Under the pieces are notes generated by a model. The model was not told the DNA's origin. It made no database searches and worked only from the letters and a program-made list of their open reading frames with translations. A DNA stretch of 64,000 nucleotides from Thermodesulfobacteriota bacterium (GTDB lineage Bacteria > Desulfobacterota > Desulfobacteria > Desulfobacterales > Desulfosudaceae), in NCBI GenBank assembly GCA_040753795.1, contig JBFMDX010000003.1, positions 248,001-312,000 on the forward strand, in the 5' to 3' direction. Of this stretch, positions 7,731 to 29,771 are shown piece by piece. Every line of letters starts with the position of its first letter. Within the stretch, counting starts at the first letter, position 1. A program made the translations under genes and the position numbers.

Positions 7731-8891
7731 TTATTTCCTCCCGTATGTTTTCGCCGCCTTGATCAGGGCAAAGGCGTTGGTCAAAGGAATATTAGGCGGA
7801 TACTCGCACTCCGGCGCCAGGATAAAACCTCCCCCCGGCGCCAGCACGTCGATCTGTCTTTTCGCCTCATCCATGACTTCTTTGGGCGTTCCATGCACCA
7901 GCAGCGCCGTCGGCACATACCCCAGCAGGGTGGTCTGATCCCCGTATTTCTGTTTCATTTCCTGAGGCGTTTGACAATCATCCGGCAGCCTGCCGAAACT
8001 GATAAACTCCGGTTCCATGGACCGGATCTGGGCGTCAAAATAAGGCGCGTCCCCGCAGTTGTGAATTCCCACCAGGTGGCCGGTGGCTTTGATCGCCCGG
8101 CTGATTTCCCGGGCGAAGGGCCCTTCGATGTCTTCCCAGACATCCTTGGGCAGGGCGCTTCTGGAAGCAAACAGAGTATCGATGGCCACGGCCGGCACAC
8201 CGGCGGCGCACTGGGCCTGGACATATTCGATCAGCACGCCGGTAATGGTCTCGCAGGCGGCTTTGACGTCATTGGGATATAGCAGACAATCCTTGAACAG
8301 ATGCTCCGCCCCCCGCATCATGTTCAATACCCCCAGCGGGCCGAAGACAAACCCGGACACGATGGACCGCCAGCCGACCTTTTCCACCATGATGCGGCAC
8401 AGCTTCACGAATTCGCTCATCCGGCGGGCATCGGACAATCGCACCGGTTTCACCTTCCGGTAGTCTTCATGGCCGGTCAGCATCGGCCGGTTGTAGTCCG
8501 GCTGGGGCGTGGACCGTTCGGGGTAGACCATGGCCTGGCCGAAATCAGCCGCTTCCACCGACAGATCCAGCAACAACACCACCGCATCGCCGCCGACAAA
8601 TTCAAATCCGTCCAGATAGACCCGGGCGGCTTTTTCCGCGTCCAGGGCAAAATCCGGAAAAGTGATGCCTGAGATCTGCCGGGCGCCGGAACACAGGATC
8701 GGCGTCACCGGCACCCGGTCGGGTTCCTTGTGACAGAGGGTTATCAGCATCCGCTCCAGATTGGACAATTCCTGAAAACGTCCCCGCAGGCCGGCCATTG
8801 AGGCCAGCAGGTTGAGCATCGGCTCAGGCACCAGGCCCATGGGCGGCACCTTGCGGTCCCTGATGTGCTGCAAGATAATTCGCCAGTTCAT
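7731..8891 (-). CDS. Uroporphyrinogen-decarboxylase-family corrinoid methyltransferase
   Basis: A 386-residue TIM-barrel protein of the UroD/MtaA/MtbA superfamily. Recognisable parts are RVPVTPILCSGARQ near the N-terminus, the central DLSVEAADFGQAMVY, and IHNCGDAPYFDAQI with GFILAPECEYPPNIP near the end; His and Cys residues there could bind the zinc used by MtaA/MtbA-type enzymes. It is the first gene of the three-gene corrinoid operon, with AAGGAA upstream of its ATG. It could transfer a methyl group to or from the downstream corrinoid protein. The methyl source (methoxylated compound, methylamine, thiol or tetrahydrofolate) is not evident. A true haem-pathway UroD is unlikely given the neighbours. 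Confidence 0.85.
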   Translation of the reverse strand: MNWRIILQHIRDRKVPPMGLVPEPMLNLLASMAGLRGRFQELSNLERMLITLCHKEPDRVPVTPILCSGARQISGITFPDFALDAEKAARVYLDGFEFVGGDAVVLLLDLSVEAADFGQAMVYPERSTPQPDYNRPMLTGHEDYRKVKPVRLSDARRMSEFVKLCRIMVEKVGWRSIVSGFVFGPLGVLNMMRGAEHLFKDCLLYPNDVKAACETITGVLIEYVQAQCAAGVPAVAIDTLFASRSALPKDVWEDIEGPFAREISRAIKATGHLVGIHNCGDAPYFDAQIRSMEPEFISFGRLPDDCQTPQEMKQKYGDQTTLLGYVPTALLVHGTPKEVMDEAKRQIDVLAPGGGFILAPECEYPPNIPLTNAFALIKAAKTYGRK

Positions 8892-9279
8892 TCGCTGTTC
8901 CTTAAACTTATGATACGATAATTTTTTAATTCGCCCCTGCTTTTGGAATTATGTTGGAAGGAGTTAATTTTCTGAGGCCGAATAAGTCAAAAGCTAAACT
9001 TTTAACTTTTAATAAATTCTCGTCGCAATCCTACCATTTGTCAAGTTTTTTTCTTATTACAACCTAAAAGTTAATCCCTATCATTTGTGTTGATTTCTCC
9101 TCCCCGAGCAGGTATTCTTCTTATTAATTAGGGGGCATCACAGGGCCTTTACGCGATTCCCGAAGATTGAAGCGTAATCCGTCCCTGATGAGCGTTTATG
9201 CTGCTTCGTCATAAATACCGATTCGGCCTTGCCATTGATCGGCGATGACGGTAGCCATCTCTATTTTAAAGACAACGAG
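8892..9279 (+). other. Divergent AT-rich intergenic region
   Basis: This stretch separates the minus-strand corrinoid operon from the plus-strand kinase. It is clearly AT-richer than its surroundings, with homopolymer T and A runs, so promoters for both directions probably lie here. I see no convincing -35/-10 pair, no -24/-12 element, no copy of the element found at 13597 and 24556, and no small gene. Confidence 0.5.
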
Positions 9280-12081
9280 ATGAAGTCAATTCTCATTAAA
9301 GCATTTTCCGCCTTGCGCCGGCTTTTCGCCGCGGACGCCGGTTCCTGTTCCGGGAAAAATCGGAAAGCCGTGCTCCCCGAATCCGTGGACAAAGACGCCG
9401 ATACCCGGCTGATTCTCAAATCGACCAGCATCATGCTGGCCGTCCTGGACCGCGATGTCTGTTTTACCTACGTCAGTCCCTCTTATGAACGGTTCCTGGG
9501 TTACATCCCGGATGAATTGATCGGGAAATCAGGGCTTGATCTCATTCACCCGGACGACCTGGACCGGTTGTTGGCCATTCTGGCCAAGGGGGTAGCCGGC
9601 GTCATCGACGACGTCAAGCTGATCACCTACCGGGCCATCCACAAAAACGGCGGGATTCGATATATCCGATCTTCTTTTGACTCTTTCCGGGACGGGCAGG
9701 GCAACCTTGAAAAAATCATCGCCGTGGGTGACGATATTACCGAACGCATGGCCATTGAATCCGCCCTGGCGGAAAGCGAGCAGCGGTTAAGGGCGATAAT
9801 GGACACCGTGCCTCTGGTTATTTCCGAAATCGACTGCGCCGGAAGATTCCAGTTCGTCAACAATGCCTATGCCCGGATCTTCGGGTACACATCGGACGAT
9901 TTAAAAACCATGAGCATCAGGGACTTGGCCGTGTCCCGGCGGGAAGGCGACCGCCTGATGGCGATGCTGGAAGAACTGGCCGCGGAGCAGCCGCCGCCCC
10001 TGCCCTGGGAAGGGCGCAACCGCGCCAAAAGCGGCAAGATCCTGGATGTGGTGGTGGACTGGGATTACAAACGAGACGAGCGGGGGCAGGTCACGGGATT
10101 CATCACGGCCATCTCCGATGTCTCGGAAGCAAAAAAAACGGAAGACGCCCTGCGACAGAGCCAGCAACGCTATCAGGCCATGTTCAATAACGTCCCCGCC
10201 GGCGTGGCGGTCTACCAGCCGGTCGACGACGGTCGTGATTTTGTATTAATCGATTTCAACAACGCCGCGGAACAGATTGAAAACATATCCCGGGAAGCAA
10301 TCATCGGCAGAAAAGTCAGTGACGTTTTCCCCGGCGTGAAATCCTTCGGTCTCTTCGAGGTCCTGCAGCGGGTTAACGAGACCGGCCGGCCGGAGCAGCA
10401 TCCGGTTGCCCTGTATCAGGACGACCGGATCAGCAGCTGGCGAAAAAACTTTGTCTACAAGCTGCCCAGTGGTGAAATTGTGGCGCTTTACATCGACGAA
10501 ACCGATCGCGTCCGGATCGAGGAAGCAAGGCGGGAAAGCGACGCCCGGTTCCGTTCCCTGGTGGAGTATTCCGCTGATCATGTTTTCATGATCAACCACG
10601 AAGGTGAGTACCTGTTCAGCAACGACCGCCTGAACCGGAACGACTTTTTGGGGAAGGAACCGCTGGCCGGCAAACCGCTTGAAGCCGCCTATCCTCCGGA
10701 ACTGGCCGCCCGTTTCCGGCGTCTGGTGGCCCATGTTTTCAAACACGGCAACGTCACGTCCTTTGAACACGAGATAAGGGAGCCGGGCGGTCTGTTCGTC
10801 TATCTGAATACCCTTTACCCTATTTACAAAAACGGCAGGACCTGGGCCGTGGGCGGCATCAGCCGCGACATTACCACCCGCAAACGATACGAGCAGGAGC
10901 TACAGCAGAAGACGCGGGAACTGGAAAGGACCGTCGAGGAACTGCGCCAGACCCAGCGCCGGATCATCGACCAGGAGCGACAGCGGGCATTGTCACTGAT
11001 GGCCAGCGGCATCGCTCACGATTTCAACAATTCCCTGACATCCATCCAGGGGATTTCCGATCTGCTACTCCAGACGCCGGAAAAAATGAACAACCCCAAA
11101 ACCGTCAAAGACTATATCACCCTGATCAACAACGCGGCCAGGGATGCGGCCCAGATCGTCCGGCGCTTGAGAAAATTTTACCGTCCCGGCGACAACGAAC
11201 CGATCGGATCGGTTGACGTCAATGCCTTGATCGAGGAAGCCCTTGCCCTCACGGAACCCGTTTGGAGGAGCAAGGCCCAGGCCAGGGGCGCTTTTATCAC
11301 CATTGAGAAAGACCTGGAAGACAAGGCCGCCATCACAGGAAACCGGGCTGAAATTCATGACGTCATCACCAACCTGATATTTAACGCCGTCGATGCCATG
11401 CCCCAGGGCGGAACCCTGCGGCTTCTCACCCGCCGGGACGGCGAATGGCTGGAGATTATCGTCAATGACAGCGGTATCGGCATGGACAGCAACGTTCGCG
11501 CGCAATGCCTTAACCCCTTTTTCACCACCAAGGGAGAGGCCGGCAGCGGCCTGGGCCTGGCTACGGTCCAGGGAATCATCACCCGGCACGGGGGAGAGAT
11601 CAGGATTGAAAGCGCGCCGGGCCGGGGAACGACTTTCGTGCTGCGCCTGCCGGCATCAATCCATAAACAGGTGCCGGCACCGGCCAGGCAGTCACCGGGA
11701 GGCACCCTCCCACCGCTCAACATTCTCATTGTTGATGACGAGGAGCATCAGCGCCTCCTGCTGCAAAAATATCTGCAAAAGGATAACCACCGGATTCAGA
11801 CCGCCAGCAACGGTGAAGACGGCATGCGCAAGTTCAGTGAAGACCGTTATGACCTGGTCATTACCGATCTGGCCATGCCCAATTTGAGCGGCACCGCCCT
11901 GGCCCGCGATATCAAGCGCAATGCGCCGGACAAACCGGTTATCCTGTTGACCGGATTCGGCGATATGCCGGACACAATCAAGGAAAACCAGGATATCGTT
12001 GATCTGGTCATCACCAAGCCGGTCACGCTGGCGCGGCTCCGGGAAGCCATTTCGCAGTTGATTTATGAAAGAGAAGGATGA
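9280..12081 (+). CDS. Multi-PAS hybrid sensor histidine kinase with receiver
   Basis: A soluble protein of about 933 residues, with no membrane segment seen. Four PAS-like modules are recognisable from their starts (IMLAVLDRDVCFTYVSPSYE; LVISEIDCAGRFQFVNNAY; AGVAVYQPVDDGRDFVLIDF; DHVFMINHEGEYLFSNDRL). A coiled coil leads to the phospho-acceptor H580 in GIAHDFNN, an ATPase domain with N-box NLIFNAVDAMP and GIGM/GLGLATVQG boxes, and a C-terminal receiver with D863 in ITDLAMPN. It probably senses a cytoplasmic redox or small-molecule signal and phosphorylates the activator encoded next. The ATG at 9280 is preferred to the in-frame TTG at 9229, though its ribosome site is weak. Confidence 0.88.
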   Translation: MKSILIKAFSALRRLFAADAGSCSGKNRKAVLPESVDKDADTRLILKSTSIMLAVLDRDVCFTYVSPSYERFLGYIPDELIGKSGLDLIHPDDLDRLLAILAKGVAGVIDDVKLITYRAIHKNGGIRYIRSSFDSFRDGQGNLEKIIAVGDDITERMAIESALAESEQRLRAIMDTVPLVISEIDCAGRFQFVNNAYARIFGYTSDDLKTMSIRDLAVSRREGDRLMAMLEELAAEQPPPLPWEGRNRAKSGKILDVVVDWDYKRDERGQVTGFITAISDVSEAKKTEDALRQSQQRYQAMFNNVPAGVAVYQPVDDGRDFVLIDFNNAAEQIENISREAIIGRKVSDVFPGVKSFGLFEVLQRVNETGRPEQHPVALYQDDRISSWRKNFVYKLPSGEIVALYIDETDRVRIEEARRESDARFRSLVEYSADHVFMINHEGEYLFSNDRLNRNDFLGKEPLAGKPLEAAYPPELAARFRRLVAHVFKHGNVTSFEHEIREPGGLFVYLNTLYPIYKNGRTWAVGGISRDITTRKRYEQELQQKTRELERTVEELRQTQRRIIDQERQRALSLMASGIAHDFNNSLTSIQGISDLLLQTPEKMNNPKTVKDYITLINNAARDAAQIVRRLRKFYRPGDNEPIGSVDVNALIEEALALTEPVWRSKAQARGAFITIEKDLEDKAAITGNRAEIHDVITNLIFNAVDAMPQGGTLRLLTRRDGEWLEIIVNDSGIGMDSNVRAQCLNPFFTTKGEAGSGLGLATVQGIITRHGGEIRIESAPGRGTTFVLRLPASIHKQVPAPARQSPGGTLPPLNILIVDDEEHQRLLLQKYLQKDNHRIQTASNGEDGMRKFSEDRYDLVITDLAMPNLSGTALARDIKRNAPDKPVILLTGFGDMPDTIKENQDIVDLVITKPVTLARLREAISQLIYEREG

Positions 12082-14750: not shown

Positions 14751-16859
14751 ATGACCAAAGAATTCAAAGCCAGACAGATATTTATCGAAGAAGCCCGGGA
14801 TGAGCTGCTGCCGGAACTGGAAAACGCCCTCCTGGAACTGGGCGGCCATCCGGATGATCCGGCGCTGATCAACCGGGTTTTCCGCGCCCTGCACACCCTC
14901 AAGGGCTCCGGCGCCATGTTCGGTTTTGACCGGCTCTCCGGACTGGCCCACGAAATGGAAACGGTCTTTGACAATGTCCGCAACGGTCTCTACCGGGTTA
15001 CCAACCCGCTGGTGGAACTGACCCTGACGGCCAAGGATCAGTTTCATCTGCTGGTTAATGATCCGGAGTCCGTTAGCGCCCAGACGATTCAGGACCTGGC
15101 CCGGGCCTTCCGGGACATGGATGCGGACAAGACACCGGCCGGCAGCGCCCAGGACGGTCGCGCGACTGCAGACAGCCCGGCCGATCCGCAGTCCTGGGCG
15201 GTCTATCACATCCGTTTCAAACCGCGGCCCGGGATTTTCAGCACCGGGACCAATCCGCTTTTCCTGCTGGATGAATTAACCGAGCTGGGCGTGACGCGCG
15301 TTATCGCCCATGCCGGCGGCATCCCCCTTCTGGAAGCCATGGACCCGGAGGCATGCTATGTCTGGTGGGATATCCTCCTGGCCACGGACCGGGGAATCAA
15401 CGCCATAAAAGACGTGTTCATATTCGTGGAAGGCGACTGCGAATTAACGATTGATGTTATTGCCGATCATGTGCAACCGGGTCATGAGTCACCGGTTTTC
15501 GAGGAACTGGGGCGGCGGCTGCTGGAGGAAGAGACCATCGGCCTGGAGACCCTGCGCCAGGCCTTTATCGACAAGATACGTTCCACGGACGGAAAAGACA
15601 TCGTTGCGGAAAACATTCAGCGGCCGGCCGCGACCGGAGGCCCGGACCGGACTTTAACCGACCGGCGTTCCGGGAAAGACCGCCGCGGCGAGCCCAGGTC
15701 CATATCCAGCATGCGGGTCCAGGCCGTCAAACTGGATCAACTGGTCAACCTGGTCGGGGAACTGGTCATCGCTCAGACCCGTCTCTCCCGGCTGGCAATT
15801 GAAAAAGACGATCCGGCCCTGGCGGAAATCGCCGAAACCATTGAACGTTTAAGCAATGACCTGCGGGAAAACACGCTGGATATCCGCATGCTGCCCATCG
15901 GCGCCAGTTTTGGAAAATTCAAGCGCGTCGTCTGGGACCTGTCGTCCCAGCGGGGGAAAACGGTGGAACTGGTCACCGAGGGCGCGGCCACTGAACTGGA
16001 CAAGACCGTTATCGAACGACTGGATGATCCCCTGGTACACCTGCTGCGGAACAGCATCGACCACGGCATTGAACCCACGGAAGAACGGCGCCGGGCGGGA
16101 AAGCCGCCCCAGGGTAAAATTATCTTCTCCGCCGAGCATTCCGGCGGGCATGTCATCATCACCATATCCGATGACGGCCGCGGCATTGACCCGGACGCCG
16201 TCAGGGCCAAAGCCGTTGAAAGAGGTCTCCTGAACCCTGACGCGACCCCGGACGAAAAAGAACTGTTCAACTTCATCTTTGAACCCGGCTTTTCCACCGC
16301 CAGCCAGGTTACCGATCTGTCCGGCCGGGGGGTCGGCATGGACGTCGTCAAGCAGAGCATCACCGCCCTGCGGGGCAAAGTAACGGTCGCCAGCGAAAAA
16401 GGACGGGGCACCACCGTTACCATGAAACTGCCCCTGACCCTGGCCATTATCGATGGTCTCCAGGTCCGCATCGGCGGGGAAAACTTCATTGTACCGCTGG
16501 CCGTGGTCAGCGAATGCCTGGAGTTGGCCGGCGGCAAAAACGGTTCCCGGGAAAACCGGCTCATCAACCTGCGGGATCAACTGGTCCCTTTTCTTAACCT
16601 GCGGGAGTGGTTTTCCATCAGCGGATCACCGCCGGGCAATGAACAGGTAGTGATTGTCTCCTCGGAAAAGGCCCTGGTCGGACTGGTCGTTGACGAGGTC
16701 ATCGGCCTGCAGCAGACGGTCATTAAAAACCTGGGCGCGGCCTACAAGGACATAAAGGGCATTTCCGGCGCCACCATCCAGGGAGACGGCAGCATTGCCC
16801 TGATCCTGGACGTGGATCTGCTGGTCCAGGAAGCGGAGGAAAGAGCCGGAACCCCTTAA
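14751..16859 (+). CDS. cheA: Chemotaxis histidine kinase CheA
   Basis: A 702-residue CheA. The N-terminal HPt domain carries phospho-acceptor His48 in [11 protein letters not shown]2-like alpha/beta region (about 145-245) precedes the dimerisation domain ([20 protein letters not shown]), the ATPase domain with N434 in [16 protein letters not shown] and GRGVGMDVV, and a C-terminal CheW-like regulatory domain. It autophosphorylates under receptor control and passes phosphate to CheY and CheB. It is followed by two receptor genes in the same orientation. Confidence 0.97.
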
Positions 16860-16909: not shown

Positions 16910-18985
16910 ATGAAAAATATTTCCGTAGCCAAAAAGCTGGCCATCGGCTTTGGCGCCCTGATCGTGATCATGGGCGTTGTCGGGTTCATCGGCCTGGCTC
17001 AGATGGGGTCGATCCGCGCCGCGCTGAAGGATTTCAGCCGCTGGGGCGATTACGACATGGTCATGAACGAAGATGTCGTTCAGAACGTCATCAAGGTTCA
17101 AAACTGGTTCGACGCCTATATCGCCGACCCGGGAACAGACCGTTTCGCCGATCTCCAGAGCGGCCTGCAGGAGGCCATCGACGGCAGCCGGTCCTGGTCC
17201 GAACTGGTTTCCGACGCCCCCCGCCTGAAAGAGCAGGCGGACAAAAGTCTGGAAAACCTCAGCAACCTGAAACAGTCCGCGGAGGAACTGGCCAAAACAT
17301 TCTCGTCTTTGAGCAATATTCGGCGTCAGCAGGAGATGCTGGTTGAACAAATTCTTTCCCGCCTGGATCACGCCATGAAGGAAATCATCGAGCCGGCCAT
17401 CAGTTCCGCCGTGATTGCCAAAGACATTCAGTCCTTCATTGACTGGAACGCCATCGGCACCCTGGCCAACGATGCCATCATCGTCAATACCCTCAAGCTA
17501 CAGGCCGCGGCGCACAGTTACGAGATCAATGGCAATGAAGCCGACTGGAAACAGCTGCAGGAGCATCAGGCCGCGCTGGCCAAAGGACTGGAGGAGTGGA
17601 AAGCGCTCATCACCGATAAGCCCCCCCTGGTGTCCACCTACGAGAACGCCGCCGAAAGCCTGAATACCTTTTCCGGCCTGTCAAACAGTTTTCATGACGC
17701 CTTCCTGTGGGTCAACGATTACAGGAAAGAAACCAGGGGGAAACTGCAAGACCTGGTAGACACCCTGGAAAAGCTGATGGAAGAGGTCATCGACCCGGAA
17801 AAATCGGCCCGTGTGGAAAAGGCCGAGCAGGCATACGGCAGTGGACGATTGCTGATTCTGGTCGGACTGATTCTGGCCGTTATGACCGGACTTCTCCTGG
17901 CGGCTCTGCTGACACGGGGAATTACCGGCCCGCTGCGGTCCGTGGTCGCATCGCTGAACGCCATTGCCGACGGCGACCTGACCGTGGCGCCGGCGGTATC
18001 CCAGCAGGATGAAATCGGCCAGCTGGCCGATGCGCAAAGGAACATGATTGACCGGTTGAAAGAGGTGGTCGTCCAGGTCCAGTCCGCTTCCGAAAACGTC
18101 GCTTCCGGCAGCGAGGAGATGAGTTCTTCTTCCGAGGAACTGTCCCAGGGGGCTACTGAACAGGCCTCCCATCTGGAAGAGGTGACTTCCAGCATGGAAC
18201 AGATGGGATCTAACATCAACCAGAACGCCGACAACGCCGTGGAGACCGAAAAAATCGCCCGGCAGGCGGCCCGGGACGCCGAAGCGGGAGGCCGCCAGGT
18301 GCAGAACACGGTCCGGGCCATGAATGAAATCGCCGGCAAAATCTCCATCATCGAAGAGATCGCCCGGCAGACCAACCTGCTGGCCTTGAACGCGGCCATT
18401 GAGGCGGCCCGGGCCGGAGAAGCCGGTAAGGGATTTGCCGTGGTGGCGGCGGAAGTGAGAAAACTGGCCGAGCGCAGCGGACTGGCGGCCAAGGAAATCG
18501 GAGAGCTGTCGGCCAGCAGCGTGGACGTGGCGAAACAGGCCGGAATCATGCTGGAAAAAATGGTACCGGATATCCGCAGAACCGCCGAACTGGTCCAGGA
18601 AATCAGCGCCGCCTCAAAAGAACAGACGGCCGGCGCGGACCAGATCAACCAGGCCATTTCCCAGCTTGACCAGGTAGTACAGCAAAACGCTTCCTCGGCC
18701 GAAGAGGTCTCCTCCACGGCCCAGGAACTGGCCAGCCAGGCCCAGCAACTGCAAAGCGCGGTAACCTTTTTCAAGGTCGGTGAGTCAACCGGCAAAAAGC
18801 AGGGTTATCTCCGGGCCACAAACGATCCGGGGAAAAGGATACCCGCCCTGACCCCGTCAAAGGCCGGCAATCATCTGGATGAGACGGCTGGCGAAACGCT
18901 ATTGCCCGGAAAAGCAGCCATACGGCAGCCCGTCCCCGGCGCGGCGGTCAACGATAGGGTTGATCATGAATTCGAACGGTATTGA
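16910..18985 (+). CDS. Methyl-accepting chemotaxis protein with helical sensor domain
   Basis: A 691-residue receptor. Membrane segment 1 is at about 9-31 and segment 2 at about 314-336. The roughly 280 residues between are entirely helical, like helical bimodular (HBM) or four-helix sensor domains. A HAMP domain and the conserved signalling hairpin follow (tip [21 protein letters not shown] at about 481-505). The protein ends in a 60-residue flexible tail terminating EFERY, which fits the x-aromatic-x-x-aromatic pentapeptide used to tether CheR or CheB. The ligand is unknown. A long part of its signalling domain is almost the same in DNA as that of the next gene. Confidence 0.95.
18069..18770 (+). 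repeat. Near-identical MCP signalling-domain segment, copy A
   Basis: This stretch and 20214-20915 match closely, with long runs of identical bases, far beyond what protein conservation requires. The sensor halves of the two genes are unrelated. Confidence 0.85.
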
Positions 18986-21000: not shown

Positions 21001-21507
21001 ATGAACGACACGAAAAACGCCCAGAGCAACACCTATCTTACCTTTTATCTGGATGAGGAGTTGTTCGGCCTGAATATCCAGATGGTACGTGAGGTCCTGG
21101 AATACACGCCGGTCACCCGGGTACCCATGACCGCCGATTTCATGCTCGGTGTCATCAACGTTCGCGGTCATGTGGTGCCGGTCGTCGATTTGAGGCGGAA
21201 ATTCGGATTAAACCGAACGGAGCAGACCGTCAACACCTGCATCATTATTGTGGAGATCGCTATTGAAGGCGACTCCTCGACCATGGGCGCCCTGGTAGAC
21301 GGCGTTCAGGAAGTCATGGATATCATGCCGGAGCAGATTGAAAAATCGCCCCGCCTGGGCAGCCGCATTGAAACCCGTTTCATTCAGGGCATCGGCAAGC
21401 TGACCGACCGGTTTGTCATCCTGCTGAATATCCAGTCCGCCTTTTCCCTGGATGAGCTGTCCATGATCGCCGAAATACAGCAGCAGACCGAGGAGCAGAA
21501 TGCCTGA
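21001..21507 (+). CDS. cheW: Chemotaxis adaptor CheW
   Basis: A 168-residue CheW domain: YLTFYLDEELFGLNIQMVREVLEYTPVTRVP at the start, then MLGVINVRGHVVPVVDLRRKFGL, the typical receptor-kinase coupling core. It links the receptors to CheA. AAGGAGAG upstream gives a good ribosome site, and the stop overlaps the cheR start by 8 bp. Confidence 0.96.
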   Translation: MNDTKNAQSNTYLTFYLDEELFGLNIQMVREVLEYTPVTRVPMTADFMLGVINVRGHVVPVVDLRRKFGLNRTEQTVNTCIIIVEIAIEGDSSTMGALVDGVQEVMDIMPEQIEKSPRLGSRIETRFIQGIGKLTDRFVILLNIQSAFSLDELSMIAEIQQQTEEQNA

Positions 21508-22405
21508 TCTTATGTGCGCGAATCACGGTACCGCCCTGAACACGGGCCAGGGGAAAACAGCGGAGCCCATCTGGACCCCTCCGCCGCCCATGACCAGCGG
21601 AGAATTCAAATCCATCGGCGGCTTTATCCAGTCGGAATTCGGCATTAAAATGCCGCCGGCAAAAAAAATCATGCTGCAGTCCCGCCTGACCAAACGCCTG
21701 CGGGCGATGAAGATGAGCAGTTACCGCCAGTATATGGAATACCTTTTTTCACCGGAAGGAATGGAAAAAGAGCTGCCTTACATGATCGACGCGGTCACCA
21801 CCAACAAGACCGACTTCTTCCGGGAGCAGGCACACTTTGACTTTCTCTATAACACCCTGCTGCCCCAATGGTTCCTGGCGACCGGCGGCAGGGAGGTGTT
21901 CACCGCCTGGAGCGCCGGCTGCGCCACCGGCGAAGAACCTTACAGCCTGGCCATCATGTTGAGCGAGTTTGCCAGAGTGCAGCCGTCTTTCACGTTTGAA
22001 GTCACGGCTACGGACGTCTCCCGGGAAGTGGTTGAAAAAGCCAGTCAGGCGATTTATCCGGCCAGAAGAACCGACACCATTCCCGCCGAACTGCGGAAAC
22101 GGTATCTGATGAGGAGCAGAGACCGTCAGAAACAGCTGACGCGCATCGTGCCGGAAGTCAGGAGCCGGGTGAAATTCTCTTTGCTGAACCTGATGAAAAC
22201 CTTTTCCTGCCCCCGGGAATACGATATCATCTTCTGCCGTAATGTCATCATCTATTTTGAACGGGTGGTGCAGGAAGAACTGTTCAATAAATGCTGCAAC
22301 TGTTTGAAGCACAATGGTTATCTTTTTATCGGCCATTCCGAAACCTTAAACGGCATGCGCCTGCCGCTGCGGCAGATCCGGCCGACCGTATATCAAAAAG
22401 CGTAA
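21500..22405 (+). CDS. cheR: Chemotaxis receptor methyltransferase CheR
   Basis: A 301-residue CheR. After a 30-residue proline-rich leader, the helical N-terminal domain (FIQSEFGIKMPPAKKIMLQSRLTKRLR) and the SAM-binding domain (TNKTDFFRE; FTAWSAGCATGEEPYSLAI; YDIIFCRNVIIYF; LFIGHSETL) are all present. It methylates receptor glutamates using SAM. It overlaps cheW and is followed by a receiver gene. Confidence 0.97.
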   Translation: MPDLMCANHGTALNTGQGKTAEPIWTPPPPMTSGEFKSIGGFIQSEFGIKMPPAKKIMLQSRLTKRLRAMKMSSYRQYMEYLFSPEGMEKELPYMIDAVTTNKTDFFREQAHFDFLYNTLLPQWFLATGGREVFTAWSAGCATGEEPYSLAIMLSEFARVQPSFTFEVTATDVSREVVEKASQAIYPARRTDTIPAELRKRYLMRSRDRQKQLTRIVPEVRSRVKFSLLNLMKTFSCPREYDIIFCRNVIIYFERVVQEELFNKCCNCLKHNGYLFIGHSETLNGMRLPLRQIRPTVYQKA

Positions 22406-22425
22406 GGCTTTTGCAGGAGGTAAAC

Positions 22426-22875
22426 ATGCAGAGAATACTGATCGTTGATGACAGCCCGTCCATCCGTGAGGGAATGCTCGCCATTCTGACGCCGCTGGCG
22501 GAATGCCACGTGGCCACCAACGGCCAGGAAGCGGTGGACCTGATCAAGCGCACACAGGGAAAAGGGAAATATTTCGACCTGGTAATAATGGACGTTATCA
22601 TGCCGGAAAAAGACGGCCTGACAGCCGTCAAGGAAATCCGGGCATTCGAAAAAGAACAGGGCTGGAGCGGTGACGATACCCTGACCATCATCATTGCCAC
22701 TACCATTAAGGATCCCGCCAGGATTCTGGTCGCCCAGTATGAATGCGGCGCCGACGCCTATATCGCCAAGCCCTTTACCGAAAAAACGGTCCTCCAGACC
22801 TTGCGCAACAACGGCCTGAATTCCGGTTCCGATGACATCGTCGACAACCCGAATCAGTGGAGCTTTTCCGAATGA
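22426..22875 (+). CDS. CheY-like response regulator
   Basis: A 149-residue single-domain receiver with D8-D9, phospho-acceptor D56 (LVIMDVIMP), the Thr position (ATTIKD) and the Lys in YIAKPF. It is longer than CheY, with extra residues around the third helix and a 20-residue tail. The start is set by AGGAGG five bases before the ATG. It lies between cheR and cheD, so it is a likely phosphate sink or output regulator of this CheA; a true CheY-type regulator is also encoded at 26825. Confidence 0.9.
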   Translation: MQRILIVDDSPSIREGMLAILTPLAECHVATNGQEAVDLIKRTQGKGKYFDLVIMDVIMPEKDGLTAVKEIRAFEKEQGWSGDDTLTIIIATTIKDPARILVAQYECGADAYIAKPFTEKTVLQTLRNNGLNSGSDDIVDNPNQWSFSE

Positions 22876-23432
22876 AACCTGAACCGGAAATCCTGCCTAA
22901 AAACAACGACCTGGCCGACTGGGTGAATGTGTATTTAAAACAGGGTGAATTCTATATCTCCGGCGGCAGTCCGGTTCAGGTTCGAACGGTGCTGGGGTCC
23001 TGCGTTACGGTGACCATGTACTGTCCGGTCCGTAACATCGGCGGCATCACCCATTCCCTGCTTCCCTATCCCCTGCCCAATACGGTCGACGCGCCCAATC
23101 TGACCGGCCGTTATGTCAATCTCAGTATCCGCCACGTGTTCAGCCGCATGGCCGTTCTGGGCGTCAACGTCAAAACACTGGAAGTGAAAATCTTCGGCGG
23201 CGGCCAGATGTTTTTACCGGTTCCGGGGAAACCGGTGCAGGAGGCGCTCAATATCGGACGCCGGAACGTGGAAACCGCCTTAAAGACCATCCAGGAGCTG
23301 GGATTGAATATCACCGCCACTGATGTGGGCGGCAATCATGGCAGAAAGCTGCTGTTTTTCCCTCACCGGGGAGACGTCTGGATCAAAAAAATCAACCGCA
23401 CTGTAAACCAGAAAACAGAAGGCCATGACTAA
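22872..23432 (+). CDS. cheD: Chemoreceptor glutamine deamidase CheD
   Basis: A 186-residue CheD. The catalytic cysteine lies in [12 protein letters not shown] and the histidine in [10 protein letters not shown], with the later FGGGQMF and [10 protein letters not shown] segments. It deamidates receptor glutamines and can interact with CheC-type phosphatases, none of which is seen here. ATG 22872 forms an ATGA overlap with the upstream receiver gene. Confidence 0.95.
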
Positions 23433-24546
23433 ACCTCCCATCCGGGTTCTGATAGTTGACGATTCCGCCCTGGTCCGGCAGACCCTCAAGGAAATCCTGG
23501 ACGTGGACCCGGACATCCAGGTCATGGGAACGGCCCCGGACCCCTATCAGGCGGCCAGGAAAATGAGCGCCGACATGCCGGATGTCCTGACCCTGGATAT
23601 CGAAATGCCTCGGATGGACGGCCTCACCTTTTTAGACCGGATCATGGCCCAGCACCCCATCCCCGTTATCATCTGCTCGGCGCTGACGGAAAAGAATTCG
23701 GAACTGGCACTGAAGGCCATCGAACATGGCGCGGTGGATGTCATCAATAAACCGCGGCTGGGTGTACGCCAGTTTTTTGAAGAAGCCCGCATCCGGATCA
23801 CCGACGTGGTGAAAGCCGCCGCCGGAGCCAGAATCTCGCGGCCGCCGAAGATCCCCATCCCGTCCCGGGCATACGCGGTGGAACCGAAACTGACGGCCGA
23901 CGCCATGATGCCGGGCATCAAACCGGGCCAGACCGTTTTCCAGACCACCGACAAGGTCCTGGTCGTGGGGGCCTCCACCGGCGGCACCGAGGCGCTGCGG
24001 GTGCTGCTGGAGGCCATGCCCCTGGACGCGCCGGGCATCGTGGTGGTTCAGCACATGCCCGAACACTTCACCACCGCTTTTGCCCAGCGGCTGAACGGGA
24101 TCTGCGGCATTACCGTCAAGGAAGCCGACGACGGCGACCCGGTGCTCAAGGGCCAGGCCCTGATCGCTCCCGGCAACCGGCACACCCTGCTGAAAAGAAG
24201 CGGCGCCAAGTATCTGGTCCAGGTGAAAGACGGGCCCCTGGTGTCCCGGCACCGGCCGTCGGTGGATGTACTGTTCCGGTCGGCCGCGCGCTATGCCGGC
24301 GGAAACGCCATCGGCGTCATCATGACCGGGATGGGTGATGACGGCGCCCGCGGCATGCGGGAGATGCACGATACCGGCGCCTACACCATCGCCCAGGACG
24401 AGGTATCCTGTGTTGTCTACGGCATGCCCAAGGAAGCGGTCAAAATGGGAGGAGTCGATCAGGTTCTGCCGCTGAACAAAATTGCCGCGGAAGTCATCCG
24501 CTACTACAAAAAACACACGGAATACTCGATCCAGACTGTCTCATAA
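23425..24546 (+). CDS. cheB: Chemotaxis methylesterase CheB
   Basis: A 373-residue CheB. The N-terminal receiver has D58 in [12 protein letters not shown]. The methylesterase domain has the catalytic Ser in [12 protein letters not shown], His in VVQHMPEHF and Asp in [11 protein letters not shown]. It removes methyl groups from receptors when phosphorylated by CheA. It overlaps cheD by 8 bp and is the last gene of block 1. Confidence 0.97.
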
Positions 24547-24832: not shown

Positions 24833-26746
24833 ATGAGATTTGCGGCTCTGTTAAAAAAAATATCAAAAAATCAAACGGATGACATCGATCTGAAGGAATG
24901 GATGCCGCCCGGGGGATCTCTTTGCACGGAGAGCCCTCAGCCGCAAATCCCTGTGCATGTCGACCAGACGGAAGCCGCCGAGGTTCTGGAACAGACCTTT
25001 CCCGATATAACAGCGTCCATGGACGATTTTATTGAAGGGTCGGAGGCCGATTTCATGCTGCTGGGCATCGGATTGCGGACCGTTCATGCCAACGTGACGG
25101 AACTCACCGAACTGATGCTCGGCACGGTAAAACGCATGGGTTCGGACACCAAAGGCGGTTTTCTGGACAGGGGCCGGCAGATCCTGAACGAATCCATGGC
25201 CGATATTCAAACCCGCCAGAATGAGGTCCGGGCCAACCTGACTCGTATCAACGCCCTGATGGGCGACATTGAAAAACTGCACACGACCAGCAAACTGATA
25301 AAAAAATTCGCTCAATCGCTTAAAACCGTCGCCCTGACTATGCTGGTGGAAAACGCCCGCACCATCGACCTGTCCGTCAACATCTTTTCCGACGTCGCCC
25401 TGGAGATCAAAGACCTTTCGGTCAATATCAGCGGCATTGCCCATGACGTTTATAAAAACGTGGAAAAAGCCCGGGAAGTCCACCGCATCACCCGGGAAGA
25501 GATATCCGACGGCATCAAGCGACTGGAAACCCTCACCGACCAGATCCGGACGACGGTCCAGGAATCAACCCATGACACCGAAGAACTAATGCGTTTTTCC
25601 GTCGACACCATTGAAGAGTCCGGGAGGCGCTCCCGGGAAATTTCCCGGCAGGTGGCTGAAATCGTGGTCGGTGTTCAGTTCCACGACAACATGAAGCAGC
25701 GGCTGGTGAAAATCATCGAAATTCTCAACGCCATCCTGACGGCCATGGAAAGGGCCCCTGATTCAACTTCACCGGAAGGACGGGCCGACCGCGTCACCGT
25801 AGCCGCGGTCATCCGGGAACTGGTCGACAGGCTGGATGAAATAAACAAGGAGCTCAACGGCGTTTATGATAAAAACAGGACGGCCTTGAAAAGGATTCAC
25901 GGCGAGGTAAACGACCTGCTCCAGGGCCTCCGGCCCATCACTTCCGACGAACGGGATCTGCGGGCGGTCACCTTCATGAACGACCCCTTCTCCCACCTGA
26001 AGGACGCCCTGCGTCAGTTGCACGACCTGCTGAACCGGGGGGAGACATTCTACCGCCAGATTCAGGAAGCGGCCGATCAGGTCGCCGATATCGCCTCCGA
26101 CCTGTCCAAGCTCCTGGGGCTGGTCCGCAGCATCAGCGCCAATACCCACAACAAGGCCATCAATTCCATTATCGCGGCCAACCGCCAGGGAGAAAAAGGC
26201 GGCGCCCTCAAGCTGCTGGCCCAGGCCATGAATGAGCTGGCCACGAAATCCGACGGGTTTTCCGGTGAGGTCGAAAACATCATCACCTCCATTATCAGTT
26301 CCGCCGAAGAAATCAGCCGCAAAGAGACAACGGCGCCGGCAGGCCCGGGAGAAGATGACTTTTCCATCACCCGCCTGGAAAAGATCATGAATGACATATC
26401 CTTAGAATACGAACGGTTCAGGGACAACTCCCTGGCCGCCTACGAACGCGCCAAAGATCTGAAAAAAGCTACGGACACGACATTGACCAGCCTGGATTTC
26501 TTCAAGGGCCTGTCACAGAGGATTGATGAATTCCGCGACCGGCTGGCCACTCTGACGGTCCGGAACAGCCTTCAGGACATTCTTATCGCGGCGGATGTCA
26601 CCGACCGGGGCCACGTTCCTGGAAAACACACCGCCGAGCAGAAAGACAACATCATCCTCTTTGAAGAGGCCCGACGGTCGATCATGGGAAACGGTTATGA
26701 CGCCTCCGGCCATGAAGAAATGGACAGCAACGTGGAGCTTTTTTAG
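24833..26746 (+). CDS. Soluble duplicated helical protein with MCP-tip-like and CheZ-like motifs
   Basis: A 637-residue, almost wholly helical protein without membrane segments. I know no named family for it. Two related halves are visible. Half 1 has VALTMLVENAR (166-176), like a degenerate MCP hairpin tip, and about 110 residues later QFHDNMKQRL with D285-x3-Q289. Half 2 has the closer tip match AINSIIAANRQGEKGGALKL (R451) and FFKGLSQRI, where K558 replaces the Asp before Q562. The D-x3-Q spacing is that of the CheZ phosphatase residues (Asp143/Gln147 in E. coli). The C-terminus is NVELF, resembling the TVEVF end of the protein encoded at 28812. It may be a CheY phosphatase or a cytoplasmic receptor mimic. 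It is the first gene after the second sigma-54 promoter. Confidence 0.75.
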   Translation: MRFAALLKKISKNQTDDIDLKEWMPPGGSLCTESPQPQIPVHVDQTEAAEVLEQTFPDITASMDDFIEGSEADFMLLGIGLRTVHANVTELTELMLGTVKRMGSDTKGGFLDRGRQILNESMADIQTRQNEVRANLTRINALMGDIEKLHTTSKLIKKFAQSLKTVALTMLVENARTIDLSVNIFSDVALEIKDLSVNISGIAHDVYKNVEKAREVHRITREEISDGIKRLETLTDQIRTTVQESTHDTEELMRFSVDTIEESGRRSREISRQVAEIVVGVQFHDNMKQRLVKIIEILNAILTAMERAPDSTSPEGRADRVTVAAVIRELVDRLDEINKELNGVYDKNRTALKRIHGEVNDLLQGLRPITSDERDLRAVTFMNDPFSHLKDALRQLHDLLNRGETFYRQIQEAADQVADIASDLSKLLGLVRSISANTHNKAINSIIAANRQGEKGGALKLLAQAMNELATKSDGFSGEVENIITSIISSAEEISRKETTAPAGPGEDDFSITRLEKIMNDISLEYERFRDNSLAAYERAKDLKKATDTTLTSLDFFKGLSQRIDEFRDRLATLTVRNSLQDILIAADVTDRGHVPGKHTAEQKDNIILFEEARRSIMGNGYDASGHEEMDSNVELF

Positions 26747-26824: not shown

Positions 26825-27196
26825 ATGGGTCAGACAATTATGGTGGTGGATGATTCAACCAGCGTCCGGAAAATGGTTGCCTTTACCCTGGAGAACGCCG
26901 GTTACAAGGTGCTGGAAGCCGAAAACGGCATGGACGCGCTGGAGAAATTAAACGGGGCGCAGGTCAACATGTTCATCGTGGATTTGAACATGCCGCATGT
27001 GGATGGATTCGAGTTGACCCGCTCCGTGCGCGCCATGCAGGAATACCGGTTTACCCCCATTGTCATGCTCACGACGGAGTCTCTGGAGGCAAAAAAAAGG
27101 GAGGGAAAAGCCGCCGGCGCCACCGGCTGGATTACCAAGCCGTTTAAACCGGACCAGTTGATCGGCGTGGTCAAAAAAGTCATGCCCCATAATTAA
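26825..27196 (+). CDS. cheY: Chemotaxis response regulator CheY
   Basis: A 123-residue stand-alone receiver: D9-D10, phospho-acceptor D53 (FIVDLNMPHVDG), LTTES and the ITKPFKPDQL lysine. Length and composition fit CheY, the diffusible output of CheA. GGGAGA lies about ten bases before the ATG. It sits between two proteins with CheZ-like motifs. Confidence 0.93.
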   Translation: MGQTIMVVDDSTSVRKMVAFTLENAGYKVLEAENGMDALEKLNGAQVNMFIVDLNMPHVDGFELTRSVRAMQEYRFTPIVMLTTESLEAKKREGKAAGATGWITKPFKPDQLIGVVKKVMPHN

Positions 27197-27259: not shown

Positions 27260-28888
27260 ATGCGATCCGAGATATCCTCCATACTGATCATTGACGACAA
27301 AGAAACCGGTACCGGCTTGATGAAGGCGGCCCTGGAGAGTTTGGACTGGTCGGTGGTCGAAATCAATGATGCCCGCCAGGGCCTGAACATGGTTTTTGAA
27401 ATAGACCCGGACATCATCTTCCTGGCCGTTGAGGGAGACGGATATTACTGGCCCCAGATCCTGTCGCAGATATCCAGAAAAGCGCCGGACCGTCCGGTCA
27501 TCACCTTCTTTACCGGAAAACCCGTCATGGATGACATCAGCCTCTCGTTTCAGATGGGCGCCTTTGACTGCCTTTCGTTTTCACCGGCCGCCGCCCTCGA
27601 CCTGGGTCAAACCGTCAACCGTGCCCTGAAGGAAGCCCGGCGTCGCCGCCGGGAGCGGACGGCCCGGGAGCGTTTTGAAAAATCTTTGCGCGAATCGGAA
27701 CAGACCATCGCCCGCCTGCTGTCAGAACTCCAGACAACCAGAAAATCGCTGGCGGACGAGCAGAACCGGCGGTTATGCGCGGAACAGGCTGCCCGGCAGA
27801 ACCAGCAGACCTTTCAGATCATGTTCGAAAACACCCGCGATGCCATCATCCATTTAAACCGGGACGGATTTGTGGTCAACACCAACGGTACCGTCCTGGA
27901 CGTCTTCGGCCTGAGACCCGACGAAGTAATGGGCAAGGATTTGAGCGGCTACGAATTCCTGGGATGCGATTACCGGCAGGCACTGGAACTTTATAAAAAC
28001 GCCCCGTCGGACGTTCCTTTCCCCGCTTTTGAAGTGGAGGCGTTTCACAAAAACGGGCATAAAATCTATATCGAAACCCAGGCCAAACAGATGATAACCG
28101 ACAACGCCTGCGACGGTATCATCAATATCATCCGGGACATCACCCCCCAGAAAAGGCTGGAAAACACAAAAAACGCCACCATCCTGGGGCTGGCCAAACT
28201 GGCGGAATCCAGAGACGACAGCACCGGCCGCCACCTGGAACGTGTTCGGGAATATGCGCGGCTGATCACCCAGGCCATCAGCCGGCTGCCCAAATACGCC
28301 CGCTATATTACCCCGGCTTACATCAAGGATATTTACCTCTCATCCATCCTGCACGATATCGGCAAGGTCAGTATCCCGGACGCGATTCTGCTCAAGCCGG
28401 GACGTCTTAGCCCGGAAGAATTCGATATCATTAAACAGCACACGCTGGTCGGCGGAGACGCGCTGGCGGCCGTGGACGCGGAACTAAAGGAACAGTCGTT
28501 CCTGACGCTGGGCAAGGAAATCGCCTATTACCACCACGAATCATGGAACGGCCGCGGATACCCCAGAGGGTTGGAGGGTGAAGAGATCCCCCTGTCGGCG
28601 CGGATCGTCGCCCTGGCGGACGTCTATGACGCCCTGACGACCAGACGGATATACAAGGACGCCTATTCCCACGAGGAGTCGGCGGCGATTATCCTGGAGG
28701 AGAGGGGCCAAAAATTCGATCCGGATATTGTCGATGCCTTTGGCGCCAGCCTGGAGGAGTTTGACAGAGTCCGCCGCAGGATAGACAGCAGAGACAAAGG
28801 ATGCCGTTTCAATGAATACACCCATCAACCAGGAAAATCCTATGCCAGACAGGAAAAGACCTTCCGACGCACACAAACCCGACCTTGA
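27260..28888 (+). CDS. Pseudo-receiver/PAS/HD-GYP phosphodiesterase
   Basis: A 542-residue protein. Residues 1-130 form a receiver that keeps D12-D13 but has Ala56 where the phospho-Asp belongs (IIFLAVEGDG) and Phe in place of the usual KP lysine, so it is probably not phosphorylated. A charged coiled coil (130-185) and a PAS domain (190-300) follow. The HD-GYP domain has H365-D366 in LHDIGKVSIPD, HHESWNGRGYP with the GYP triplet at 433-435, and ADVYDAL. HD-GYP enzymes hydrolyse cyclic di-GMP. The PAS domain may therefore be the real input. It overlaps the next gene by up to 77 bp. Confidence 0.88.
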   Translation: MRSEISSILIIDDKETGTGLMKAALESLDWSVVEINDARQGLNMVFEIDPDIIFLAVEGDGYYWPQILSQISRKAPDRPVITFFTGKPVMDDISLSFQMGAFDCLSFSPAAALDLGQTVNRALKEARRRRRERTARERFEKSLRESEQTIARLLSELQTTRKSLADEQNRRLCAEQAARQNQQTFQIMFENTRDAIIHLNRDGFVVNTNGTVLDVFGLRPDEVMGKDLSGYEFLGCDYRQALELYKNAPSDVPFPAFEVEAFHKNGHKIYIETQAKQMITDNACDGIINIIRDITPQKRLENTKNATILGLAKLAESRDDSTGRHLERVREYARLITQAISRLPKYARYITPAYIKDIYLSSILHDIGKVSIPDAILLKPGRLSPEEFDIIKQHTLVGGDALAAVDAELKEQSFLTLGKEIAYYHHESWNGRGYPRGLEGEEIPLSARIVALADVYDALTTRRIYKDAYSHEESAAIILEERGQKFDPDIVDAFGASLEEFDRVRRRIDSRDKGCRFNEYTHQPGKSYARQEKTFRRTQTRP

Positions 28889-29396
28889 CTGGAGCCAGAT
28901 CAGGGAAACCGTCATGATGCTGAATGTCGCCCTTTCCCAGGTGGAACGGTCACTGACCGAAGGCGACGAATCGGTCAACGCCCTGACCCGTCTGTTCGTC
29001 ACACTGATGGGAAAATTGCAGGTTATTCTGATGGCCTCGGAAACAATGCCGGAAGGCCGGGAAAAGAGCGCCATCCTGAAAAACTGCCGGGATGTTTCGG
29101 AAATCGTCAACGACGTCATCGTCGCCTTTCAGTTTTACGACAAGATGACCCAGCGGCTGTCCCATGTCAGCCTGAATCTTTCCGCCCTGGGCGACCTGAT
29201 CAATGACCCCCACCGCCTTTACTCCCCATATGAATGGCGGGGGTTGCAGGAGATGATCAAGTCGAAGTATTATATCGATGCCGATCGTCAGATGTTTACC
29301 GCCATCCTCAACGGGGCCAGTGTCAAAGAAGCCCTTGAAATCGGGGAGATGAACCGGCGCAGGGAAAAGGACAGGAACACCGTGGAGGTCTTTTAA
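28812..29396 (+). CDS. CheZ-like helical protein
   Basis: A 194-residue, mostly helical protein. The key segment is AFQFYDKMTQRLSHV, giving D110-x3-Q114, the same spacing as the CheZ catalytic Asp and Gln (Asp143/Gln147 in E. coli). A longer C-terminal region follows, ending in the short tail NTVEVF after a charged linker; CheZ also ends in a short CheY-binding peptide. It probably dephosphorylates the CheY encoded at 26825, though overall similarity to CheZ is low. The start is uncertain: ATG 28812 (AAAGGA upstream) and ATG 28842 are both possible and lie inside the previous gene. Confidence 0.65.
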   Translation: MNTPINQENPMPDRKRPSDAHKPDLDWSQIRETVMMLNVALSQVERSLTEGDESVNALTRLFVTLMGKLQVILMASETMPEGREKSAILKNCRDVSEIVNDVIVAFQFYDKMTQRLSHVSLNLSALGDLINDPHRLYSPYEWRGLQEMIKSKYYIDADRQMFTAILNGASVKEALEIGEMNRRREKDRNTVEVF

Positions 29397-29447: not shown

Positions 29448-29771
29448 ATGACAGCCGATGATCATCAGGACAGACCCGTCCAGCCGTCAGGGGAAGACTG
29501 GGTTAAAAAAAGGCATCATCCGAGAAAGAATCTCAGGTTGTGCGTGACCATGGCCCACGGGCAGAAGACCGGGGAGCATCACGCGCGCGATATCAGTCTG
29601 GGAGGCATTTTCGTGGAAACCAGAGAAAAGCTGTCTCTGGGACAGGAGGTCCGGATCACGCTTCCCTTTTCCAATCAGAATCGTCAGATCAAAATGAACG
29701 GCAAAGTCGTCCGGGTAACCGAGGAGGGCGTCGGCGTTCAGTTTGATATCCTCGATATTGATATCGCCTGA
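29448..29771 (+). CDS. PilZ-domain cyclic di-GMP-binding protein
   Basis: A 107-residue single PilZ domain with the two ligand motifs: R-x3-R in KKRHHPRKNLRL and D-x-S-x2-G in ARDISLGGIFVET. It then ends GVGVQFDILD, as usual. It binds cyclic di-GMP and regulates a partner by contact. As the last gene of block 2, behind an HD-GYP gene, it points to a cyclic di-GMP linked output. Its stop is 12 bp from the stop of the convergent DnaJ-like gene. Confidence 0.9.
   Translation: MTADDHQDRPVQPSGEDWVKKRHHPRKNLRLCVTMAHGQKTGEHHARDISLGGIFVETREKLSLGQEVRITLPFSNQNRQIKMNGKVVRVTEEGVGVQFDILDIDIA

Follow-up and report, generated by a model that had tools for sequence, protein, structure and literature searches.

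A conserved che-operon protein with a CheZ-type D-x3-Q motif as a candidate CheY-P phosphatase of a desulfobacterial chemosensory cluster

How phosphorylated CheY (CheY-P) is removed in chemosensory systems without CheZ is the question raised by a che cluster of a Thermodesulfobacteriota (GTDB Desulfobacterota) bacterium. CheZ positions a water molecule with two residues, one acidic and one an amide (D-x3-Q), and the available part of the paper describing this (PMC3510030) gives the same two residues for HisKA_3 kinases such as NarX, in a helical setting beside a phospho-accepting His, and an E-x2-N motif for CheC and CheX. In Geobacter a CheZ-independent removal mechanism must operate, as stated in the available part of PMC2577667. 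A preliminary description of the 64,000-nucleotide stretch of DNA analysed here (the window; GCA_040753795.1, contig JBFMDX010000003.1, positions 248,001 to 312,000) proposed that a small protein encoded near cheY, here called Q194, is a divergent CheZ.

All genes of the che cluster in the window lie on the forward strand, in the order CheA, two MCPs, CheW, CheR, a receiver, CheD, CheB, a 637-aa protein, CheY, a REC-PAS-HD protein, Q194 and PilZ (Table 1); we take four of these to be CheW, CheR, CheD and CheB from features of their sequences, the receiver excepted. The REC-PAS-HD gene stands directly 5' of the Q194 ORF and overlaps it. CheY is encoded two genes upstream of Q194 in the same block, as first described. 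The Q194 gene is also a conserved component of che operons. The order REC-PAS-HD, Q194, PilZ is retained in genome G002 (74% identity) and at locus L007, and in the window and at both of these places cheY is in the same operon as the Q194 homologue. The first MCP of the window (16910-18985) ends in EFERY, which would fit the aromatic-x-x-aromatic form of CheR/CheB pentapeptides.

Table 1. Features of the che cluster, with positions in the window.
Feature	Position	Strand	Remark
CheA of the cluster	14751..16859	+	
CheW, CheR, REC, CheD, CheB of the cluster	21001..24546	+	same order in relatives by BLAST
637-aa chemoreceptor-like protein (PF00015)	24833..26746	+	carries motif and tail of Q194 type
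QFHDNMKQRL, residues 282-291 of the 637-aa protein (D285-x3-Q289)	25676..25705	+	position computed from the ORF
NVELF, C-terminus of the 637-aa protein	26729..26743	+	
CheY-type receiver	26825..27196	+	presumed substrate of Q194
REC-PAS-HD (HD-GYP-type) response regulator	27260..28888	+	possible alternative substrate
Q194, a small helical protein carrying D110-x3-Q114 and ending in TVEVF	28812..29396	+	194-aa ORF
FQFYDKMTQRL, residues 106-116 of Q194	29127..29159	+	candidate phosphatase surface
TVEVF, C-terminal tail of Q194	29379..29393	+	candidate docking peptide; family form [DE][IV][ED][LMF]F
PilZ protein	29448..29771	+	3' neighbour of Q194

The Q194 ORF is real and encodes the motif with D110 (codon 29139-29141) and Q114 (codon 29151-29153). 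An alternative ATG at 28842 is the likelier start, since it follows AGGAAAATCCT and agrees with the start of the relatives L002 and L007; the product would then have 184 aa, with the two residues at D100 and Q104. The spacing alone is weak evidence, because it is frequent by chance: shuffled Q194 sequences contain a mean of 0.53 D-x3-Q motifs and 42% of the shuffles contain at least one. Q194 itself has two (the other at D156), and CheA and the 637-aa protein have three each. No match to Q194 was obtained with Pfam and NCBIfam models, with PF04344 (CheZ) at E values up to 1, with PF04509 and PF13690 (CheC/CheX), with the HisKA_3 DHp domain, or with the MCP signalling domain PF00015, which the 637-aa neighbour matches at 5e-10. 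Searches of PDB sequences, with the single sequence and with an alignment, and of plasmids returned nothing useful.

Conservation is more informative. Q194 has the features of a family of stand-alone proteins: QF[YH]D-x3-Q, a conserved W142 with the KSKYT region, and a C-terminal [IV][ED][LMF]F, in which Q194 (VEVF) has V where its relatives have L, M or F. In 40 non-redundant relatives (L003 and L011 are one place, as are L014 and L089, and each place was counted once) the only invariant columns are Q107, F108, D110, Q114 and the tail residue F194. Because one of six initial search peptides overlapped the motif, the earliest relatives are partly biased; the rows found by profile were not picked by the motif, and D-x3-Q is kept in all 30 gammaproteobacterial relatives, which were found by the whole-length profile. 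In an alignment of ten rows the D110-Q114 pair is present throughout and the second D-x3-Q in two (window and L007). The CheZ-type Asp/Gln spacing noted at the outset is thus invariant in 40/40.

Relatives occur in Desulfobacterota, Gammaproteobacteria and Gallionellaceae. Four of 40 Desulfobacterota genomes, the one studied here included, have a relative, one of them only through a receptor-like protein. In Gammaproteobacteria, the class of the genome of L014, the family profile matches 46/274 genomes, and 31 encode a stand-alone protein, taken by reading as a frame below 300 aa scoring above 50 bits; the rest match through receptor-like frames, from about 400 aa upwards, or in a few cases through short frames. 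In a sample of the phylum 28/395 genomes match, in every case but the window copy within larger receptor-like frames. Neither the family nor a receptor with a CheZ motif is described in the titles and abstract openings searched, a body of literature with subscription journals largely outside it.

Che genes lie within about 1.5 kb of the relative at 13/30 gammaproteobacterial loci, and in larger stretches the relative adjoins cheR in 9 of 13; relatives L008-L015, several of them on short contigs, have no adjoining che operon. The fullest of these clusters read cheY-cheA-cheW-mcp-parA-STAS-X-cheR-cheD-cheB, where X is the Q194 relative; Pfam matches confirm parA, STAS and CheD in L121, and STAS in L127 and L130 as well. 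Their assignment to class F7 is by gene order alone: F7 clusters have a similar order, and the stage 1 and 2 forms are given with cheY and without cheZ in the available part of PMC7184735. With E. coli CheZ as query, only L128 among the 13 stretches gave a CheZ, at a distance of about 8 kb from X. The stand-alone relative and CheZ are thereby encoded in one genome, at 8701-9549 and 17955-18686 of L128. A CheD tail resembling [DE][IV][ED]LF is present in seven clusters (L121, L122, L125, L126, L127, also L124 and L129), in two of them with 1-5 extra residues; a tail of this kind is therefore no hallmark of a phosphatase. NWETF-type CheR pentapeptides have an aromatic second residue; the tail of the Q194 family has V or I there, which rules out that identity for it.

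CheZ is present in 24/31 gammaproteobacterial genomes with a stand-alone relative and in 117/274 overall, a positive association (Fisher p 6e-5); the CheZ counted for G658 is a stub of 18 residues where a contig begins. A simple genome-by-genome replacement of CheZ by the family is ruled out by this co-occurrence; in genomes with CheZ the family may serve a second cluster. Among the 28 matching genomes of the phylum sample, 16 also match PF04344 at E <=1e-3, four of them weakly (G093, G105, G284, G419), where the genome's own receptor-like protein matches PF04344 weakly (L032, L022, L018, L019). CheZ was found in 4 of the first 12 genomes examined, none of these being Desulfobacterota; G026 and G433 seem to be the same organism.

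That CheZ, CheC and CheX are missing holds for the cluster of Q194, where none was found, and a comparison of the whole genome with PF04344 (7 candidates scored) also returned no CheZ. For CheC and CheX it does not extend to the genome (G000). Contig C15 encodes a CheX-REC fusion with AEWGN (L087) and contig C27 a CheC-like protein with EVMN and EISN beside a receiver (L088), both away from any che cluster seen. CheC and CheX differ in fold from the Q194 type. The argument of the preliminary description, that Q194 must act because these phosphatases are lacking, is weakened by the two proteins, by the coexistence of the family with CheZ elsewhere, and by the 637-aa protein, a second D-x3-Q protein of the operon which that description had overlooked. 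The genome has two CheA genes, and a search of all of it for FliM gave no match, so that the CheY of the Q194 cluster is likely not driving a flagellar switch; the che system is probably non-flagellar.

Two structural models, predicted from ten sequences with mean pLDDT values of only 66.5 and 65.5, both gave a helical hairpin with short helices and a loose tail. Helices span residues 27-47, 56-77 and 83-131 in the low-confidence model of Q194, with D110 in the last, and 22-71 and 78-126 in the equally low-scoring model of the relative L010, with D105 in the second; the motif is thus placed by prediction in the second long helix, in keeping with the helical setting first proposed. In these models D lies 28-30 residues from the hairpin turn, 21 from the end of the long helix and 84-85 from the C-terminus. 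The same distances, taken from the numbering in the available part of PMC7750401, are about 43, 25 and 71 in E. coli CheZ and about 25, 30 and 71 in Azorhizobium CheZ. A heptad reading places V102, Y109, L116 and L123 in a hydrophobic stripe, with Q107, D110 and Q114 roughly 100-165 degrees away, a predicted placement that would fit an exposed active surface. In structure searches, numerous unrelated helical bundles had tied scores and none stood out; CheZ (1kmi) was not among the best 50 listed, and the chemoreceptor 3g67 (Z 7.5) tied with unrelated chains.

The closest profile relatives of the stand-alone family are chemoreceptor-like proteins with QF[HQ]DITRQ and an NVELF tail (P 1e-11). 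Q[FY]-x-D-x3-Q is present in 30/30 of these (L004, L018-L046), 28 by regular expression and two by eye (L035 and L038, which are outside the 28-row set used for the CheZ comparisons below), and the C-terminus is [IV][EV][LF]F in all 28 whose end is on the contig. Where the receptor tip is recognisable, the motif D lies 110 residues from it in five proteins and 112 in three. An [RK]YT[ML] element and the tail are common to the Q194 family and the receptor-like proteins, which have 400-900 aa with MCP signalling hairpins (PF00015) and EHV downstream of the motif, whereas Q194 consists of the motif hairpin and tail only. One of them, the 637-aa protein, is encoded in the same operon, and by eye it apparently contains two degenerate receptor hairpins. 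Two others, L018 and L019, carry the VELF element twice, internally (DVELFDN, GVELFDN) and at the C-terminus (VELF, VEFF), a pattern that a docking peptide could show.

Comparison with CheZ itself gave different results for the stand-alone and the receptor-like proteins. In CheZ a conserved A-x-x-F-Q stands just ahead of D-x3-Q, according to the available part of PMC7750401, and A-x-x-F-[YHQ]-D is its counterpart here: the motif region is mostly [SA]-x-Q-F-[HQ]-D-I-T-R-Q in the receptor-like proteins, A-Q-D-[FY]-Q-D-L-T-G-Q in the CheZ set and A-F-Q-F-Y-D-K-M-T-Q in Q194. Direct profile-profile alignment of the stand-alone family with CheZ gave P 0.28, then 0.16 with 40 rows (in register). Against our own CheZ model, built from 24 of 31 sequences after rows without the regular-expression motif or with a wrong-strand ORF had been omitted, stand-alone members scored a median of 2.55 bits and at most 9.7, their reversed copies reaching 7.8. 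By profile, then, Q194 is not recognised as a member of the CheZ family, and with neither a CheZ profile match nor a significant direct comparison its earlier naming as a divergent CheZ is not supported; the preliminary proposal as a whole finds partial support.

The receptor-like proteins come closer. Seventeen of 28 scored above 8 bits against the same model (top 27.8), and in 16 of the 17 the D coincides exactly with the CheZ D when positions are counted back from where the match ends, L042 being one off. Ten ordinary MCPs gave a top score of 12.9 with the others at or below 7.2, and reversed and shuffled receptor-like sequences reached 6.3 and 0.5. Pfam CheZ was matched, below its cut-off, in 8/17 receptor-like proteins scanned (6/8 and 2/9; E 9.5e-6 to 0.027). 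The joint set aligned with CheZ by hhalign in register at P 2.1e-5, and in the same register at P 1.2e-3 with both catalytic columns masked, compared with 7e-3 for the reversed control and 0.032 for the top-ranking of 30 column shuffles. Adding further stand-alone rows changed P to 1.8e-4, with 0.019 for the reversed control and 0.036 for the top-ranking of 60 shuffles. Other segments of the receptor-like proteins gave at best P 1.6e-3 against CheZ and mostly values above 0.01. To judge by the profile P values of each link, the chain from Q194 to the receptor-like proteins is strong and that from these to CheZ moderate; at the level of profiles the best remote relative of Q194 found is CheZ, by way of the receptor-like proteins.

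Set beside CheZ (PF04344; E. coli CheZ, PDB 1kmi), Q194 has D-x3-Q, predicted to lie on the second long arm of a helical hairpin as in CheZ, A-x-x-F-x before it, an acidic C-terminal tail with a final F, comparable spacing and an operon with cheY. It differs in that its family has QF[YH]D...QRL..H where CheZ has DFQDLTGQ, a conserved W-x-x-L-Q..KSKYT element, and a tail (TVEVF; family [DE][IV][ED][LMF]F) unlike VDxLLxxxGF, most of the CheZ set ending in VDALLAEFGF or similar; the family also frequently coexists with CheZ in a genome. HisKA_3 kinases share the two residues, but Q194 has Y, not a phospho-accepting His, before D110. CheC and CheX (PF04509, PF13690) are likewise dedicated CheY-P phosphatases where CheZ is absent, with a different motif.

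Our preferred reading, to which we give a probability of about 0.55, is that Q194 belongs to a conserved, unnamed family of che-operon proteins and acts like CheZ on the CheY-P of its own cluster. The sequence features, conservation, operon setting and remote profile link are observed directly. In the mechanism that we propose, a helical hairpin, probably paired as a four-helix bundle, would expose D110 and Q114, and the CheY-P of the cluster would dock at this face. Q114 would place the attacking water and D110 help to orient it, so that the aspartyl phosphate is hydrolysed, while the flexible C-terminal [DE][IV]E[LM]F tail may be a docking peptide for CheY or the receptor array.

The same surface could instead belong to a non-enzymatic adaptor, a phosphate-blind binder of CheY or of a different receiver (the HD-GYP-type regulator's REC, for example), working at the array or at output machinery without hydrolysis. 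The conserved surface is indeed broader than D and Q (Q107, R115 and H118 are part of it), the tail is common to CheD, and CheZ is already present in the majority of gammaproteobacterial genomes that encode a relative. We nevertheless consider an adaptor unlikely, given that D and Q keep the exact CheZ spacing in 40/40 relatives, most other exposed columns drift, and the receptor-like relatives align the catalytic D on that of CheZ. Less probable still is that Q194 is a free-living piece of chemoreceptor coiled coil, derived from the C-terminal region of MCP-like proteins and packing with receptors or with the 637-aa protein, in which D and Q would be structural. The profile link to MCP-like proteins, the fixed distance of 110 (five) or 112 (three) residues from motif to tip and the shared [RK]YT[ML] element and tail all suit such an origin, but Q194 has no match to the MCP signalling domain, the heptad analysis places D110 and Q114 off the hydrophobic face, and the receptor-like proteins resemble CheZ in the motif region and not in their other segments.

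Descent from CheZ itself, with Q194 as a true and very divergent ortholog, would explain the same length class, hairpin, motif, preceding A-x-x-F, terminal F and operon with cheY. We regard it as very improbable: the direct profile comparison detects no similarity (P 0.16), true CheZ co-occurs in 24/31 genomes, and the closest relatives are the receptor-like proteins. Returning to a family with CheZ-like action, a wider reading is possible, if on balance doubtful, in which the small che-operon proteins and the chemoreceptor-like proteins form a second lineage of CheZ-type chemistry. Receptor hairpins would then carry the CheY-P phosphatase surface in a constant register, so that signal termination is built into the array. 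Such a lineage would serve clusters without CheZ, F7-like with parA and STAS in Gammaproteobacteria and non-flagellar in Desulfobacterota, and it would share with CheZ an ancestor in a receptor hairpin.

Q194, whose two CheZ-type active-site residues are conserved in all relatives examined, is probably the signal-terminating off-switch that sensory systems without their own CheZ have seemed to lack. For CheY-P removal in such systems the family offers a concrete candidate, with two named residues and representatives in many genomes. If the receptor-like proteins bear the same active surface, they would constitute a class of chemoreceptors with a built-in off-switch, and may hint at the origin of CheZ.
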